Positions 5,007-44,705 of a stretch of DNA of 64,000 nt are shown here, piece by piece. This DNA comes from Nocardioides astragali. GTDB lineage: Bacteria > Actinomycetota > Actinomycetes > Propionibacteriales > Nocardioidaceae. A model generated the notes under the pieces. It did not search any database, had not been told where the DNA came from, and was given only the letters and a program-made list of their open reading frames with translations. The DNA is taken from positions 682,001-746,000 of the forward strand of contig NZ_JAFMZM010000002.1 of NCBI RefSeq assembly GCF_024436375.1. Reading direction: 5' to 3'. The translations under genes were made by a program, and so were the position numbers. Position 1 is the stretch's first letter, and every line of letters begins with the position of its first letter.

Positions 5007-5086
5007 GCGAGCGCAGCGAGCGAATCGTCCAACACAGTGCGACAGGTGTCTCATGCGCGCACGGAGCGAAGCGAGTACGCGCATGA
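5007..5086 (+). repeat. Palindromic repeats between kamE and kal
   Basis: Directly after kamE lies GCGAGCGCAGCGAGCG (5007-5022), a relative of the repeat between kamD and kamE. Further on, TCATGCGCG and CGCGCATGA form 9-bp arms of a hairpin around GGAGCGAAGCGAG. The kal start codon lies in or just after its right arm, so the hairpin could limit initiation. The regulatory effect is inferred. Confidence 0.5.
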
Positions 5087-5894: not shown

Positions 5895-7433
5895 GTGCCG
5901 CTGCGCTGCCTCCTCGCCCTCGTCGGCGGACTCGTGCTGGCAGCGGCGTTCGAGCCCGTCGGACTCGCCTGGCTGATGCCGCCGGCGATCGCGGCGCTCA
6001 TCTTCTCCGTGCGCGGGCTGCGCCCGGGCCGCGCCTGGATCCCGAGCCTGCTCTTCGGCATCACGTTCTCCTACGCCGTCATGGTCTGGATGCGCGCCGT
6101 CGGGACCGATGCCTGGATCGCCATGTGTGCCGTCGAGGCGGCGTTCTTCGTCCCACTGGGTGTCGGGCTGTCCTGGAGCCTGCGGCTCCGCGCCTGGCCG
6201 GTCTGGACGGCGTTGTGGTGGGTCGGGATCGAGACCTGGCGCAGCGGCTTCCCGTTCTCCGGCATGCCGTTCGGGCGGCTGGTCTACGCCTCGGCGGACA
6301 CGCCGTGGGCCGATGCCCTTCCGTGGATCGGGACCACCGGAGTGAGCTTCCTCATCGCGCTCACCGGGACGACTCTCGCGTGGTTGGTCCTGCAGGTCCG
6401 GTCCCCGTCACGTCGCGCGTACGCCGTCGTGGGAGCGCTGGCCGTCGTGACCGTCGCGCCGCTCCTCGTGCCCTTCCACGTCGAGGAGAGCGGCACCACG
6501 ACCGTGGCCGCGGTGCAGGGGAACGTCCCCGGCACGGGGCTCGACGTGGTCGCGGTCCACCGCGAGGTCTCGGCCAACCACGTCCGGATGACCGAGCAGC
6601 TCGCCGCCGCGGTGGCCGCGGGGGAGGAGCCGGCGCCCGACTTCGTGGTGTGGCCGGAGAACTCCACAGCCGTGGACCCGTTCACCGATCCCGAGGTCGG
6701 CGCCGGGATCGTCTCCGCCTCGGACGCCATCGGGGTGCCCATCGTCGTCGGCGGCATGTCCAACGACCCGCTCGACGAGGCCAACGTGCTCAACCAGGGC
6801 ATCGTCTACCGTCCGGGCCTGGGCAGCGGGGACCGCTACACCAAGCGGCACCCGGTGCCGTACGGCGAGTACATCCCGTTCCGCGGCAGCCTGATCCCGT
6901 CCTCCTACGGCAAGCTGCGGCTGGTGCCCCGCGACATGGTGCGCGGCACCAGCCTCGAGCCCCTGCGCGTCGGCGAGGTGCGAGTCGCCGACGCGATCTG
7001 CTTCGACGTGGCCTACGACGAGGGCATCAGCGGACAGGTCGCGCGGGGAGCGCAGCTGGTGACCGTGCAGACCAGCAACGCCATGTTCAGCCTCACCGGC
7101 CAGCTCGGTCAGCAGTTCGAGATCAGCCGGCTCCGCGCCCAGGAGACCGGCCGCTGGGTGGTCGTCGCCGCGATCAACGGCATCTCCGGCGTCGTACGTC
7201 CAGACGGGCACGTCGTCGCCTCGATCCCGGCCCGCCGTGAGGGTGTGCTCGTGGAGACCATCGGCCTGAGCAGCACGCTCACGCCTGCCGTCCGTCTCGG
7301 CGTCTGGCCGGCGCGCTTCTCCCTCGCCTTCCTCATAGGCCACACCGCCTTCGTCCTGGTGACCTATCGTCAGCGGCGACGTCGGGCCGATCGCTCCGAC
7401 GACCAGTCAGAGGAGCGAGGTACCACTGCGTGA
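5895..7433 (+). CDS. lnt: Apolipoprotein N-acyltransferase
   Basis: Integral membrane enzyme that N-acylates the lipoprotein cysteine. The N-terminal third (residues 1-200) is a set of hydrophobic membrane helices. The C-terminal two thirds is a nitrilase-type domain with the Glu-Lys-Cys triad visible: E255 in VVWPENS, K317 in [12 protein letters not shown], and C369 in [11 protein letters not shown]. 512 aa is the normal length. GTG start; the GTGA overlap with the next gene signals coupling. In mycobacteria the same two activities form one protein (Ppm1), so the adjacency supports both calls. Confidence 0.93.
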
Positions 7434-41400: not shown

Positions 41401-41626
41401 TGGCTCGCTGGGTCCCAGACGCCCGGGTCGTCGCCAATCACAGTTGGGGGCTGGTCGAAACCGTCGTGCTCGAGTTGAGCAGCGAGCAAGGTCGTCTTGT
41501 CCTCAAGGCTGGCGGCCCAGCGGACTACCACATCGGACGCGAGCTACGGGCTCATCGGGAGTGGCTTCGACCCTGGGCTATGACGGGGCATGCCTTTTGG
41601 GCACCCTCGTGCCAGGCGCAGCCTTG
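41401..41626. other. Chromosomal flank left of the element, no gene assigned
   Basis: No gene I can support. An open frame from 41466 runs through this stretch into the Rep half, but its first 54 residues look unlike any Rep and are probably non-coding chromosome. This is likely the original left flank of dif. Confidence 0.5.
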
Positions 41627-42146
41627 TACGCCGATAACTGACACCGTGGGGGACTGGACAGTCTCGACGTGGCTCCGTCTCGCGGCTCCGTACGGGGCTG
41701 GTCAGATCGCCCAGGCGGTGGTTCCGATCACTGGCCCTGAGGGCTGGCTGAAGTATCTGAGCAAGCACGCGTCTCGGGGTGTGGCTCACTACCAACGTCA
41801 GGGCAAGCCGGCCGGCTGGCAGTCCACTGGCCGGCTCTGGGGGAAGTCATCCGCCGGGTGGCCTCGGGTGGAACCGGTCCACGGTCAGATGGATGACCTG
41901 ACGTTCCGTCGGATGCGTCGAATGGTCCGCTCCTACGTCGTTGCTGAGGCACGCGCTGCGCTACTCGCTGCTCGTCCCGGCACTCCTGCTCATGCGGCTG
42001 CTCGTCGGCGTCTGACGTGGGCTCGTCGGATGCTGCGCTGCAACGATCGCAGCCTCTCGGCGGTGCGCGGCTTCTCGGGGTGGGTGCCCGGTCCTGCGCT
42101 CGTGTCTATGGCGCTGGCTGCGGGTTGGACCGGTGAAGTGAAGTGA
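41466..42146 (+). CDS. C-terminal half of rolling-circle Rep (split gene, chimeric frame)
   Basis: Only 41640-42146 is Rep. It reads on from the shared Pro-Ile-Thr-Asp, then TVGDWTVSTWLRLAAPYG and the catalytic motif GWLKYLSKHASRG. There Y (41754) and K (41763) form the Y-x-x-K nicking motif of HUH rolling-circle proteins. The C-terminus is Arg-rich. In the integrated state the frame is preceded by 54 codons of chromosome with no Rep similarity. It becomes the 3' half of an intact rep only after excision. The stop is followed by an 8-bp stem GAACCGGT/ACCGGTTC. Confidence 0.85.
   Translation: MLELSSEQGRLVLKAGGPADYHIGRELRAHREWLRPWAMTGHAFWAPSCQAQPCTPITDTVGDWTVSTWLRLAAPYGAGQIAQAVVPITGPEGWLKYLSKHASRGVAHYQRQGKPAGWQSTGRLWGKSSAGWPRVEPVHGQMDDLTFRRMRRMVRSYVVAEARAALLAARPGTPAHAAARRRLTWARRMLRCNDRSLSAVRGFSGWVPGPALVSMALAAGWTGEVK
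41627..41654 (+). other. Left attachment site: XerC-type arm plus degenerate arm
   Basis: TACGCCGATAA (XerC-side arm, 41627-41637), centre CTGACA (41638-41643), then CCGTGGGGGAC, which does not resemble a XerD arm. That last arm would come from the element. Confidence 0.82.
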
Positions 42147-42150
42147 CCCC

Positions 42151-42173
42151 GAACCGGTCCCGCCAACCGGTTC
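42151..42173 (+). terminator. Stem-loop after rep
   Basis: GAACCGGT (42151-42158) and ACCGGTTC (42166-42173) with a 7-base loop, four bases beyond the Rep stop. It could be a terminator or part of the replication origin. Confidence 0.55.
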
Positions 42174-42193
42174 CTAGGTCTACCGTTCACCGC

Positions 42194-42334
42194 ATGGACC
42201 TCAACTGCCCAACGTGTGGTGACCGGCTCATCGTCATCCCTAACGATGACCCTGCGTACGGACCCTCCACGCTCTACCTGTGTGAGACAGCCGGTGCAGC
42301 GCACGTCCCGCTTGGCTGGACCCCCGACCAGTAA
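42194..42334 (+). CDS. 46-aa zinc-ribbon-like protein of the element
   Basis: MDLNCPTCGDRLIVIPNDDPAYG... then LYLCETAGAAHVPLGWTPDQ. It has one CPTCG knuckle and a later Cys/His pair. ATG 42194 lies 20 bases after the stem-loop. Small, so coding is likely but not certain. Confidence 0.5.
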   Translation: MDLNCPTCGDRLIVIPNDDPAYGPSTLYLCETAGAAHVPLGWTPDQ

Positions 42335-42443
42335 CACGGGGGTAGGTTCCGCACTTGTCGCCGCAGATTCGGGTGGATCGATGGTCCGGTGTGGGTGAGG
42401 CCGCGTACGGTCTGGTCGGCAACGGACTGACGAGGGGGAGCAC

Positions 42444-43091
42444 ATGGCAGGCGTAAGCGACGGGCTGCGGACAACCACTACGTCTGCGTCGATCTCGGTG
42501 GGGGACAGCCAGCACTGGATCAACCACCCGTGCCCGCACTGCGGGGCGGCCCAGATCGTAAGGATCGGGATAGTGGTGAACAGTTCTAACAACATCCTGA
42601 GCGACGAGTCGGCGTGGTACCGCTGCCCGTCATGCCGCCAGGGGATCGTCCGAGTGAAGGGCACCTATTACCCGTCCGCGCAGCCGCTCCGTGTGCCGAT
42701 GGGTCTGCCCGCGGTGGACGACCGCATCTGGGGCGAAGTGCGTACCTGCTTAGGCGTGGGCGCTCACACCGCAGCCGTCATGCTCTGTCGCAAGCTCCTC
42801 TTTCACATCGCCGTGGCGCACGGTCTAGCGCCGAAGGATGCGAAGGACCGCGCCCCGGGCTACTGGACTGCGGTCGAGCACCTCGAAAACGAAGGGCTCA
42901 TCACCAAGAAGATGCGGCCCTGGGTTGATCGCATCAAGGACGTCGGCAACGACGCCAACCACGAGGTAACTCCCATCGGTCCTGATGACGCGCTCGACGT
43001 CGCAACCTTCACCGAACAGTTGCTCGTGCTGGCCTACGAGATGGACGCGCTAATGACAGACCCCACGTCGGCCGCGCCCGAGTTGGCTTGA
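42444..43091 (+). CDS. DUF4145 protein with N-terminal zinc ribbon (element cargo)
   Basis: 215 aa. N-terminal zinc ribbon with CPHCGAAQ and CPSCRQG (about 30-70). The C-terminal DUF4145 domain (about 85-205) has WTAVEHLENEGLITKKM and RIKDVGNDANHEVTPIGPDDALD. DUF4145 domains are HEPN-like helical bundles often fused to restriction or other defence proteins. Start ATG after GAGGGGGAG. Codon use is less GC-biased than in chromosomal neighbours. A defence or maintenance role is inference. Confidence 0.78.
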   Translation: MAGVSDGLRTTTTSASISVGDSQHWINHPCPHCGAAQIVRIGIVVNSSNNILSDESAWYRCPSCRQGIVRVKGTYYPSAQPLRVPMGLPAVDDRIWGEVRTCLGVGAHTAAVMLCRKLLFHIAVAHGLAPKDAKDRAPGYWTAVEHLENEGLITKKMRPWVDRIKDVGNDANHEVTPIGPDDALDVATFTEQLLVLAYEMDALMTDPTSAAPELA

Positions 43092-43638
43092 GGTCTGCGA
43101 CTGCGAGGCTGCTCGGCTCCGCAGATTCGGTCCCTCCCGGTGGACGGGACGGCCCTGGCGCTGCGGGCGTACCGCAAGCGACGGAGTCGCGAGGAACGCC
43201 CGGGGTGCCTGGGCTGCTTCGTGCGCTAGAGGGTTCGGTACGGCGATTCGCTGACTCAGTGTTGGTGGCTCGGCTAATCTCACCTGTACGCGGCAACTGA
43301 CTATGTAGCGCGTGATGAGGGTTCCCCTAGTGAGGGACAGGCACCGGTAGCACCCGCCACCGGCCCAGAGGAAATGCCGACGACATGCAGGCGGGAGTCC
43401 TGTCTCGTCGTCGGAAGGGCCCGTCATGGGCGCTCGTTCTGCCCTCGTCCATCAGTGTCACTCGGTCGGTCATGCTGGGTGCATCGTCTGCGCGCCTGTG
43501 GTGCGTGAACGTCACTTGCGCGCGGCGAGCCTGCGGGGTGGGTGTGGGGCCTCTCGGGTAGCCCCTTCGGGGACCCGGCGCCCGACGAAGGAGGGCGTTG
43601 GGGAGGGGCGGGGCCCCACACCCGCAGGCTCGCCGCCC
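43092..43638. other. Gene-free origin-like region with stem-loops
   Basis: No gene seen. It has CCGACGAC (43377-43384) pairing with GTCGTCGG (43407-43414). A very large imperfect stem runs from 43522-43551 to 43612-43636, enclosing CGGGT...CCCC-TTC-GGGG...ACCCG (43555-43577). Such structures are typical of single- or double-strand origins in rolling-circle elements. Origin function is inferred. Confidence 0.55.
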
Positions 43639-43896
43639 CTAGGAGGCACGTCGGCGGAACCACCTCAGTCGTCGCCGTTGGACGGGCAGGGGCATGTGCC
43701 AGGTCTTGGCCTCGGTCCGCGCTACGTCGAGTTCCTCGCGTCGGACTGCTGCTTGCCGGACTGCTTGACGGCTGACGTTCAGGGCGCGTCCGATCTCGGC
43801 CCAGGTGGCTCCATCAGCTCGTGCTGCGTCGACCATAAAAGTCGTTGCGGCATCGAGGGTCTCTCTGGCGTGTCGCAGGGCCTCGAGGTGCTCCAA
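43639..43896 (-). CDS. Small helix-turn-helix protein of the element
   Basis: About 85 aa. Helix LEALRHARETLDAATTFMVDAARADG followed by the helix-turn-helix GATWAEIGRALNVSRQAVRQ, then a basic tail ending RRRLRWFRRRAS. It starts at TTG 43896 at the latest; the frame stays open upstream without a clear ATG or ribosome site, so the start is uncertain. It is the only leftward gene in the element, and a copy-number or rep repressor is plausible. Confidence 0.7.
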   Translation of the reverse strand: MEHLEALRHARETLDAATTFMVDAARADGATWAEIGRALNVSRQAVRQAAVRREELDVARTEAKTWHMPLPVQRRRLRWFRRRAS

Positions 43897-44243
43897 GGGT
43901 CGCTGTGGGCCGTGGGTGATCGGGTGGAGCGTTGCCAGGGTCCTGCTGACCCACCACCGCGCTGTGGGTGCCTGCCTCGGTGCTCACAGCAATCGATCTT
44001 GTCACCGATCATGCGAATTCGACCCTGCATCTCGTCAACACCAATTGACGAATGCGAATACCGCTAACAGCGAGTTAGCACTGAATTGCTGGGGGAGTCG
44101 TCGGCGTGCCTCGGGGGGCCGTCCCTTGATTAGTAGTTGCATATCTCGACAGGGCCCCCAACCGGGACCCCTCACAACCAAAAAGAATGACCCCCGCGAG
44201 ACGGCAATCTCCGGGGGTCAGATCACCAGTCAGGACAAGTGAC
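43897..44243. other. Control region between the HTH gene and rep
   Basis: No gene. It holds the palindrome GCTAAC-AGCGA-GTTAGC (44063-44079). A hairpin TGACCCCCG (44188-44196) / CGGGGGTCA (44212-44220) is followed on the minus strand by TTCTTTTT, a classical intrinsic-terminator shape for leftward transcription. It is less GC-rich than the flanking chromosome. Confidence 0.55.
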
Positions 44244-44705
44244 GTGGCGACCTTCAAAGCGTATGCGAACGGGGCGACGATGGGGCGAGGCAACAACGCT
44301 CCGAAAGGCGGGAAGCGTGGCTGTGTCGACGGCTGGTCACGCTCAGCGGTCCGTCGGCATCTGGAGTTCCTCTACAGCGTCGATGTGCCCAGGCTGGACG
44401 GCTCTGGCTTCGGCGTCACGCTGACCGTCAGGAACACACCGCCGACCCACACCGAGTGGATGAGCCTCCTGCAGAAATTGATCCGAGAGTTCCGAGCTGC
44501 AGGGTTGAGCCGGTGGCACTGGGTGGTGGAGTGGCAGAGACGGGGCACGCCGCACCTGCATCTGGCTGTCTACGCCCCTGACGGCTGGACTCCATCCGGT
44601 TCGCCGATAACTGACATTATGTCAGTCAGCGTTTGCGCATTGTCTCCAGATCCCTCCCCCGTACGAAGCCAAACGAGGCGGCTCGTCTGGACACCCATGG
44701 AGTAG
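44244..44705 (+). CDS. N-terminal half of rolling-circle Rep (split gene, chimeric frame)
   Basis: Rep portion 44244-44615, about 124 aa. Motif 1 is GFGVTLTVRNTP. Motif 2 is WVVEWQRRGTPHLHLAVY, with the metal-binding H-x-H of HUH endonucleases (His at 44553 and 44559). It stops resembling Rep at Pro-Ile-Thr-Asp inside the attachment core; the next 30 codons are chromosome. The GTG at 44244 is preferred to ATG 44187, because the latter lies on a hairpin. Joined to the left half it gives about 291 aa (310 from the ATG). Confidence 0.85.
   Translation: MATFKAYANGATMGRGNNAPKGGKRGCVDGWSRSAVRRHLEFLYSVDVPRLDGSGFGVTLTVRNTPPTHTEWMSLLQKLIREFRAAGLSRWHWVVEWQRRGTPHLHLAVYAPDGWTPSGSPITDIMSVSVCALSPDPSPVRSQTRRLVWTPME
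44600..44627 (+). other. dif: dif site (XerC/XerD recombination), right attachment site
   Basis: TTCGCCGATAA (XerC arm), CTGACA (centre) and TTATGTCAGTC (XerD arm): the 11-6-11 plan of bacterial dif sites. It carries the actinobacterial hallmarks CCGATAA and ACATTATGTCA. It marks the replication-terminus region. The XerD arm is chromosomal; the XerC arm belongs to the integrated element and is coding sequence of rep. Confidence 0.88.

Follow-up and report, generated by a model that had tools for sequence, protein, structure and literature searches.

A predicted rolling-circle replication gene that crosses, and is split at, the likely Xer site of a small element in a probable Nocardioides dif region

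Structure of the element and of its split rep gene

We analysed a stretch of 64,000 nucleotides from Nocardioides astragali (contig NZ_JAFMZM010000002.1, hereafter the window), in which an element of 2,973 bp abuts a dif-like site and carries the two halves of a gene, rep, for a predicted rolling-circle replication initiator (Rep), one half at each end. Elements that use Xer borrow the dimer-resolution enzymes of their hosts for integration. The features of the locus are compiled in Table 1.

The element is delimited by a 15-bp core, CGCCGATAACTGACA, present at 41629-41643 and 44602-44616. A search of the 5.17-Mb genome allowing up to two mismatches returned only these two exact copies, four further matches with two mismatches each, and none for the reversed control pattern. 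Within the window alone, three matches with up to three mismatches compare with 1.5 expected, which is not significant, and the weight is therefore placed on the two exact copies. The ends of the element differ: the right core belongs to a complete 28-bp site, TTCGCCGATAACTGACATTATGTCAGTC, whereas the left one has only the XerC-side arm and the centre, followed by a sequence that agrees with the XerD arm of the window's dif at 4 of 11 positions (3 to 4 of 11 in the five element sites compared). No recombinase family was matched in the main open reading frames (ORFs) of the element, and none of the 10 genomic matches to PF00589 falls inside it. A preliminary description of this DNA had placed the core at both positions and seen no recombinase, and both statements hold; it had overlooked that the right copy is part of a complete dif-like site and that the left copy is a partial one. 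With a core shared with dif, a full dif at its right end and no recombinase of its own, the element is likely a mobile, miniature member of the integrative mobile elements exploiting Xer recombination (IMEX). Its relatives are bounded by cores in the same way and measure 2,691-3,143 bp.

The two rep frames, those of the ORFs at 44187-44705 and 41466-42146, pass through the core in a common phase, and each reads it as Pro-Ile-Thr-Asp (PITD), as had been described; the phase was computed from the positions, and the halves in the window were not joined in silico. Of the 99 positions of the Pfam profile PF23343 (REP_ORF2-G2P), the N half covers 4-64, with an E value of 2.8e-8 and a score of 34.4 bits, above the cut-off of 27.8; by itself, the C half gave no Pfam hit at E 0.01. 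In P0001, a natural whole homologue, the match covers profile positions 4-98 across residues 58-166, and the core corresponds to residues 121-124. P0001 scores 36.5 bits with this profile, and the Reps of the related genomes G030 and G073 score 41.9 and 37.4. Because the match in the whole protein spans the core, the core divides the predicted catalytic domain of Rep itself, between the HUH strand and the predicted tyrosine helix.

An AlphaFold2 model of P0001, built from 55 sequences (mean predicted local distance difference test score 88.2, predicted template modelling score 0.83), places the core in a loop between strand 103-111, which bears the HUH motif, and helix 126-137, with Tyr162 in helix 156-177. 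As is usual in the superfamily, the HUH histidines and Tyr162 are predicted to form the active site of Rep. No second complete rep was found elsewhere in the genome of the window.

Table 1. Features of the element and its right-hand dif-like site, with positions in the window.
Feature	Position	Strand	Description
Whole element	41629..44601	+	2,973 bp, from the left core to just before the right core; 15-bp direct repeats
Left core (attL)	41629..41643	+	XerC-side arm and 6-bp centre, without XerD arm
Rep C half with predicted catalytic tyrosine helix	41631..42146	+	Aligns to the C half of P0001; frame open upstream to 41466 or further
Small ORF, 63 amino acids	42143..42334	+	Overlaps the rep stop codon; no family at E <=0.05
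Cargo ORF, 215 amino acids	42444..43091	+	DUF4145, zinc-ribbon-like N terminus; PF13643, 39.5 bits, over cut-off; phrog_1305, E 4.1e-17
Helix-turn-helix (HTH) protein, 85 amino acids	43639..43896	-	phrog_686, E 5.1e-10; common to all relative elements compared
Conserved 25-bp block TTGATTAGTAGTTRCATATCNCGAC	44126..44150	+	5' of rep; in the window, G030 and both G073 elements
Conserved hairpin	44188..44220	+	Strong; just 5' of rep; changes on both sides of several pairs
Rep N half with HUH motif	44244..44615	+	PF23343 match; frame open past the core to 44705
Complete dif-like site (attR)	44600..44627	+	28 bp; core at 44602-44616

The probable host dif site and Xer genes

Allowing at most one mismatch, 194 of the 215 genomes of the genus contain the dif form CGCCGATAANNNACATTATGTCA (three of them with two matches), and the reversed control gave none in the table. 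In two relatives assembled in one contig, it lies near the antipode of dnaA: in G028, dnaA is at 2,990,166 and dif at 1,000,297 of 3,998,545, and in G073, dnaA is at 3,824,588 and dif at 1,782,067 of 4,110,100. Given this prevalence and position, the site at 44600-44627 is very probably the chromosomal dif. The host encodes XerD (TIGR02225, 336.2 bits, above the cut-off of 329.6) and a XerC-like protein whose score (TIGR02224, 306.4 bits) is below the curated value of 335.15.

Whole rep genes and tandem arrays in relatives

The fusion of the two halves had been predicted to give a Rep of 291 amino acids, and P0001 has exactly this length. It matches both halves: its identity is 95% over the N half (residues 1-124), and two alignment methods put that over the C half at 90-95%. 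The contig on which it is listed measures 2,732 bp.

In two related genomes, whole rep genes are found at the junctions of tandem copies. N. daeguensis (G030, contig C28; locus L007) has cores at 5987, 8678 and 11369, which delimit two identical copies of 2,691 bp; a whole Rep of 287 amino acids runs across the internal core, a split C half lies at the left end, and the right end, with dif, is at the end of another contig. The G073 chromosome carries elements of 3,101 and 3,143 bp in tandem, with a C half on the left, a whole Rep of 285 amino acids at the junction, and an N half that runs into dif on the right. These two elements are 98-100% identical in their right parts (about 1 kb, comprising the HTH gene and the N half) but not in the remainder. 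One element supplies the N half of the junction Rep and its neighbour the C half; we do not call this Rep a sequence chimera because the N halves of both elements are identical. In G028, behind a rep element of 2,923 bp comes a further element, of 2,787 bp, in which no C half was detected; the internal junction reads PITD-TGT and then a stop, and the two halves of the first element are still in a common phase. The phase is the same through every core inspected, whole or split.

A signature at the site across the family

We found 535 relatives of the C half, 120 of which were listed, and 72 of the N half. In 30 of the 120 listed, the alignment is confined to the C-terminal part of P0001; 13 of these begin exactly two residues past the core, and four show PI[ST]D after other residues. 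On the N side, 17 of the 72 relatives, including that of the window, leave the homology as PI[STR]D-IM, which is dif read through its XerD arm, and one more, P0134, has a different sequence after PISD. Lone integrated copies are suggested by four pairs of halves whose N and C members are listed on contigs of the same size (4,158, 4,542, 6,781 and 2,499 bp).

Thirteen proteins, three of them incomplete at one end or frameshifted later, cross the site into the C part, with PITD in five, PISD in six, and PIMH and PIMN in one each. Read in the same phase, the dif loci fetched from 30 of the 194 genomes with the site give PITD (14), PISD (11), PIMH (2), PITN, PIIY and PIMD (1 each), and PIMN would be the reading of the dif of G119. 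Since the Reps that cross the site carry peptides read from the dif variants of the genus, this stretch of Rep tracks those variants. The isoleucine codon of the site is ATA, the sole ATA in each of seven rep pieces; in five neighbouring or cargo genes, 79 of 81 isoleucine codons are ATC, one is ATT and one is ATA. That the rep pieces use ATA only at the isoleucine of the core suggests that the DNA site, and not the protein, is constrained here. Aligned Reps that lack the site have no PIxx between motifs 2 and 3.

These readings amount to a signature that can distinguish integrated from rebuilt copies in sequence databases: P-I-x-x is followed by I-M when the element is integrated at dif, and mostly by Asn, Thr or Ser and then Val- or Ala-Gly when the gene is whole.

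Distribution of the element

In searches that scored a limited number of candidates per genome, rep was matched at E 1e-8 in 6 of 215 genomes of the genus: that of the window, G028, G030, G044, G073 and G128. G044 keeps only residues 85-128 or so, and G128 a degraded N half. Under the same limit on candidates, rep was found at the level of the family in 6 of 341 genomes, all within the genus and none in the other 25 genera; in the sample of the class, the genome of the window was the only one with rep among 394.

Other traces were seen near dif. At locus L069 of G002, dif on the minus strand is preceded by a half-site 1,377 bp away (reverse-complement positions 5040 and 6417), and another, shorter element without detectable rep may lie there. 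At L070 of G021, whose dif is on the minus strand, a short remnant, GWTPPGS-PITD, stands ahead of dif (L047), as if an element had been lost or had decayed. In the window, the left flank (41424-41628) adjoins the core, and its frame opens into the Rep C half; matches to a piece of it (approximately 41424-41566) occur in G140 and G078, at a distance of about 4 to 5.5 kb from dif, and the flank is possibly a relic of an older dif-linked gene. Among viral sequences, the 3,814-bp IMG/VR contig L066 looks like a filamentous phage or prophage (720-2288 and 3686): it has a gene of the Zot family and a related Rep of 47% identity, and its complete dif lies outside rep.

Other genes and the region upstream of rep

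The HTH protein has blastp matches in G030, in both G073 elements (G073a and G073b) and in G028 (G028a and G028b). The cargo varies: at L021 (4090-10334), one of the two G073 elements has a Mutator-family transposase and the other a GNAT acetyltransferase. A defence role of the cargo received no PADLOC match among the three ORFs tested, and no morphogenesis gene (Zot-like ATPase or coat) was present among the five ORFs of the window element tested. The XerD activator XafT, which goes with TLCphi-type attachment sites, was absent from the Pfam matches of the five element ORFs, a search that a diverged one could escape. Neither RNA families nor promoters by consensus were found. Upstream of rep, where the hairpin was compared in an alignment of three lineages, the 25-bp block and the hairpin are a candidate origin, operator or attenuator.

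Interpretation and alternatives

We consider it quite probable that the predicted rolling-circle rep of this element crosses its own likely Xer site, that the copy at dif is split there, and that a circle or a tandem array would rebuild the gene. The earlier proposal of a rep gene spanning its own core in an element at dif without a detected recombinase is strongly supported by the tandem junctions and the database proteins. In the mechanism that we envisage, the host XerC and XerD would recombine core with core, and every integration event would recreate a complete dif at the right end, so that further copies could stack, which would explain the arrays. A lone integrated copy would be unable to start replication and is probably replication-silent. 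Circles would form, and in a circle or at a tandem junction, both probably replication-competent, the intact Rep would nick an origin close to the conserved 25-bp block. From the arrangement of the gene, a switch may be inferred in which integration would silence Rep and excision would restore it.

Tandem integration is a second way to an intact rep besides excision; it is directly visible in the assemblies and was absent from the preliminary description. Excision may be slow, rare or helper-dependent, with tandem insertion as the main route back, because the left junction is nearly without a XerD arm and altered dif arms lower excision in Legionella (PMC9765430). If the proposal is right, the very presence of the replication enzyme would also depend on the dif site, and replication would be tied to chromosome segregation without a repressor. 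One may go further and regard the gene as a suicidal initiator, in which the host dif has been written into the Rep catalytic domain, the peptide follows the dif of the host, and the host recombinase sets replication, off in a lone copy and on in a circle or tandem; this we put forward tentatively, with confidence slightly under even.

Several observations weigh against the proposal. The left junction has hardly any XerD arm (4 of 11 positions), and three of the six genomes with rep hold remnants (G044 and G128) or a partly decayed array (G028). The likeness of the P0001 model to known HUH enzymes is weak: the best match in the PDB, 4er8, is a HUH enzyme with a probability of 1.00 but an E value of 5.8e-3, and none was found at E 0.001. 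As for circular forms, the single relative from scans of viral sequences is distant, lacks a terminal repeat and has its dif outside rep, and a search of plasmid DNA gave no match. The comparison of filled and empty dif sites that had been suggested was answered in part: filled sites with a whole rep at tandem junctions exist in G030 and G073, but no exact empty locus was found with the left flank in 58 genomes, nine of which had a match, and both flanks against 30 dif loci gave only partial synteny (the right flank, in G027 and as a short piece in G001). There was no excess shuffling of Rep halves at the core; half swapping there was rejected, as the identities of N and C halves correlate with a Pearson coefficient of 0.81 among 12 site-bearing Reps (66 pairs) versus 0.56 among 20 site-less ones (190 pairs). 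Finally, the lone copy in the window could be a tandem array collapsed in the assembly.

The alternative that survives best, possible though in our view doubtful, is that the split is a passive by-product: a linker tolerated the site, integration is effectively one-way, the split copy is dead, and only free circles matter, with no switch. The decayed remnants of G044 and G128, the partly decayed array of G028, the XerD arm missing from the five element sites compared and the Legionella result cited above all agree with it. Against it, the frames of the two rep halves in the window are open, and their identity to a whole homologue is about 90-95%; whole rep genes stand at tandem junctions; and integrated and free forms of XacF1, a virus at dif whose phage attachment site (attP) falls inside a gene, come to equilibrium (PMC5666396).

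Somewhat less probable, and on balance unlikely, is that the integrated array is the productive state, lone copies being losses or collapsed assemblies. In CTXphi, phage production needs tandem copies (PMC4246890), and the arrays of G030 and G073 have whole junction genes; P0006, a whole Rep of 276 amino acids, is listed on a contig of 630,675 bp. The split copy of the window, however, lies alone inside a 904-kb contig, four pairs of halves are listed on equal-sized contigs, the junction in the one-contig chromosome of G028 fails to rebuild rep, and the G030 repeat could reflect a free circle in the assembly graph.

We find it improbable that the element is a satellite packaged by a filamentous phage that is related to it and exploits dif as well, with the split as part of a lysogeny-like state. 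The L066 contig, with its related Rep, Zot-family gene and full dif, would suit such a partnership, as would the relationship of the C half to a Pf3 protein. The absence of morphogenesis genes from the ORFs tested argues otherwise, the relatives in plasmid records are mostly tiny plasmids, and dif is outside rep in L066. That unrelated gene fragments abut a repeated dif core in the same phase, as one case in three would by chance and as the window alone would allow, has practically no probability left, being refuted by the natural whole genes and opposed by the tandem junctions and the recurrent split forms.

Comparison with known systems

One of the closest parallels is XacF1, an inovirus of Xanthomonas citri without an integrase, which integrates at dif through XerC/D and whose attP lies in an ORF that is split on integration (PMC4076744, PMC5666396). 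The element shares with it the lack of a detected integrase and the likely attachment site inside an ORF split at dif, and it may share the balance of integrated and free forms mentioned above. In contrast, the ORF split in XacF1, ORF12, is a possible regulator and not an initiator, and XacF1 is a 7.3-kb virus with coat genes and a proteobacterial host. A 5' deletion of ORF12 made the integrated state very unstable (PMC5666396), and the truncated N half of rep, open to 44705, might likewise have a role of its own. The element is not placed among the inoviruses, as its main ORFs tested include neither a Zot-like ATPase nor coat genes. The form of its attachment site, a XerC arm and centre with a degenerate XerD arm, resembles that of TLCphi of Vibrio cholerae, whose attP has no real XerD arm and whose integration is described as reversible (PMC4246890); TLCphi also uses dif, differs in being a satellite phage of another phylum, and is not reported, in the literature covered, to carry the site in its replication gene. 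The Rep itself is homologous to the initiators of phage Pf3 and of tiny plasmids such as that of X. citri (NC_010887).

The preliminary description had known of no element that uses a site inside rep as a switch. For an initiator this stands, in that none split by dif was found in the literature searched, which is weak evidence as many subscription papers were not covered; the wider idea of an attP inside a gene at dif is already known from XacF1 (PMC5666396). Genes that split themselves are also known from the suicidal integrases of the archaeal elements SSV1, pTN3 and pT26-2, whose attachment site lies in their own gene, divided into N and C parts, and such gene-disrupting recombinases have been called exclusively archaeal (PMC8371274). 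The likeness is the self-split gene, and the difference is that the archaeal gene encodes the recombinase, whereas here a predicted initiator of the PF23343 family is split and the recombinase would belong to the host. As the split gene is a Rep and not a tyrosine recombinase, we do not include the element among the suicidal integrases; rather, it would bring to a bacterial replication initiator the principle of the self-splitting gene known from archaea.

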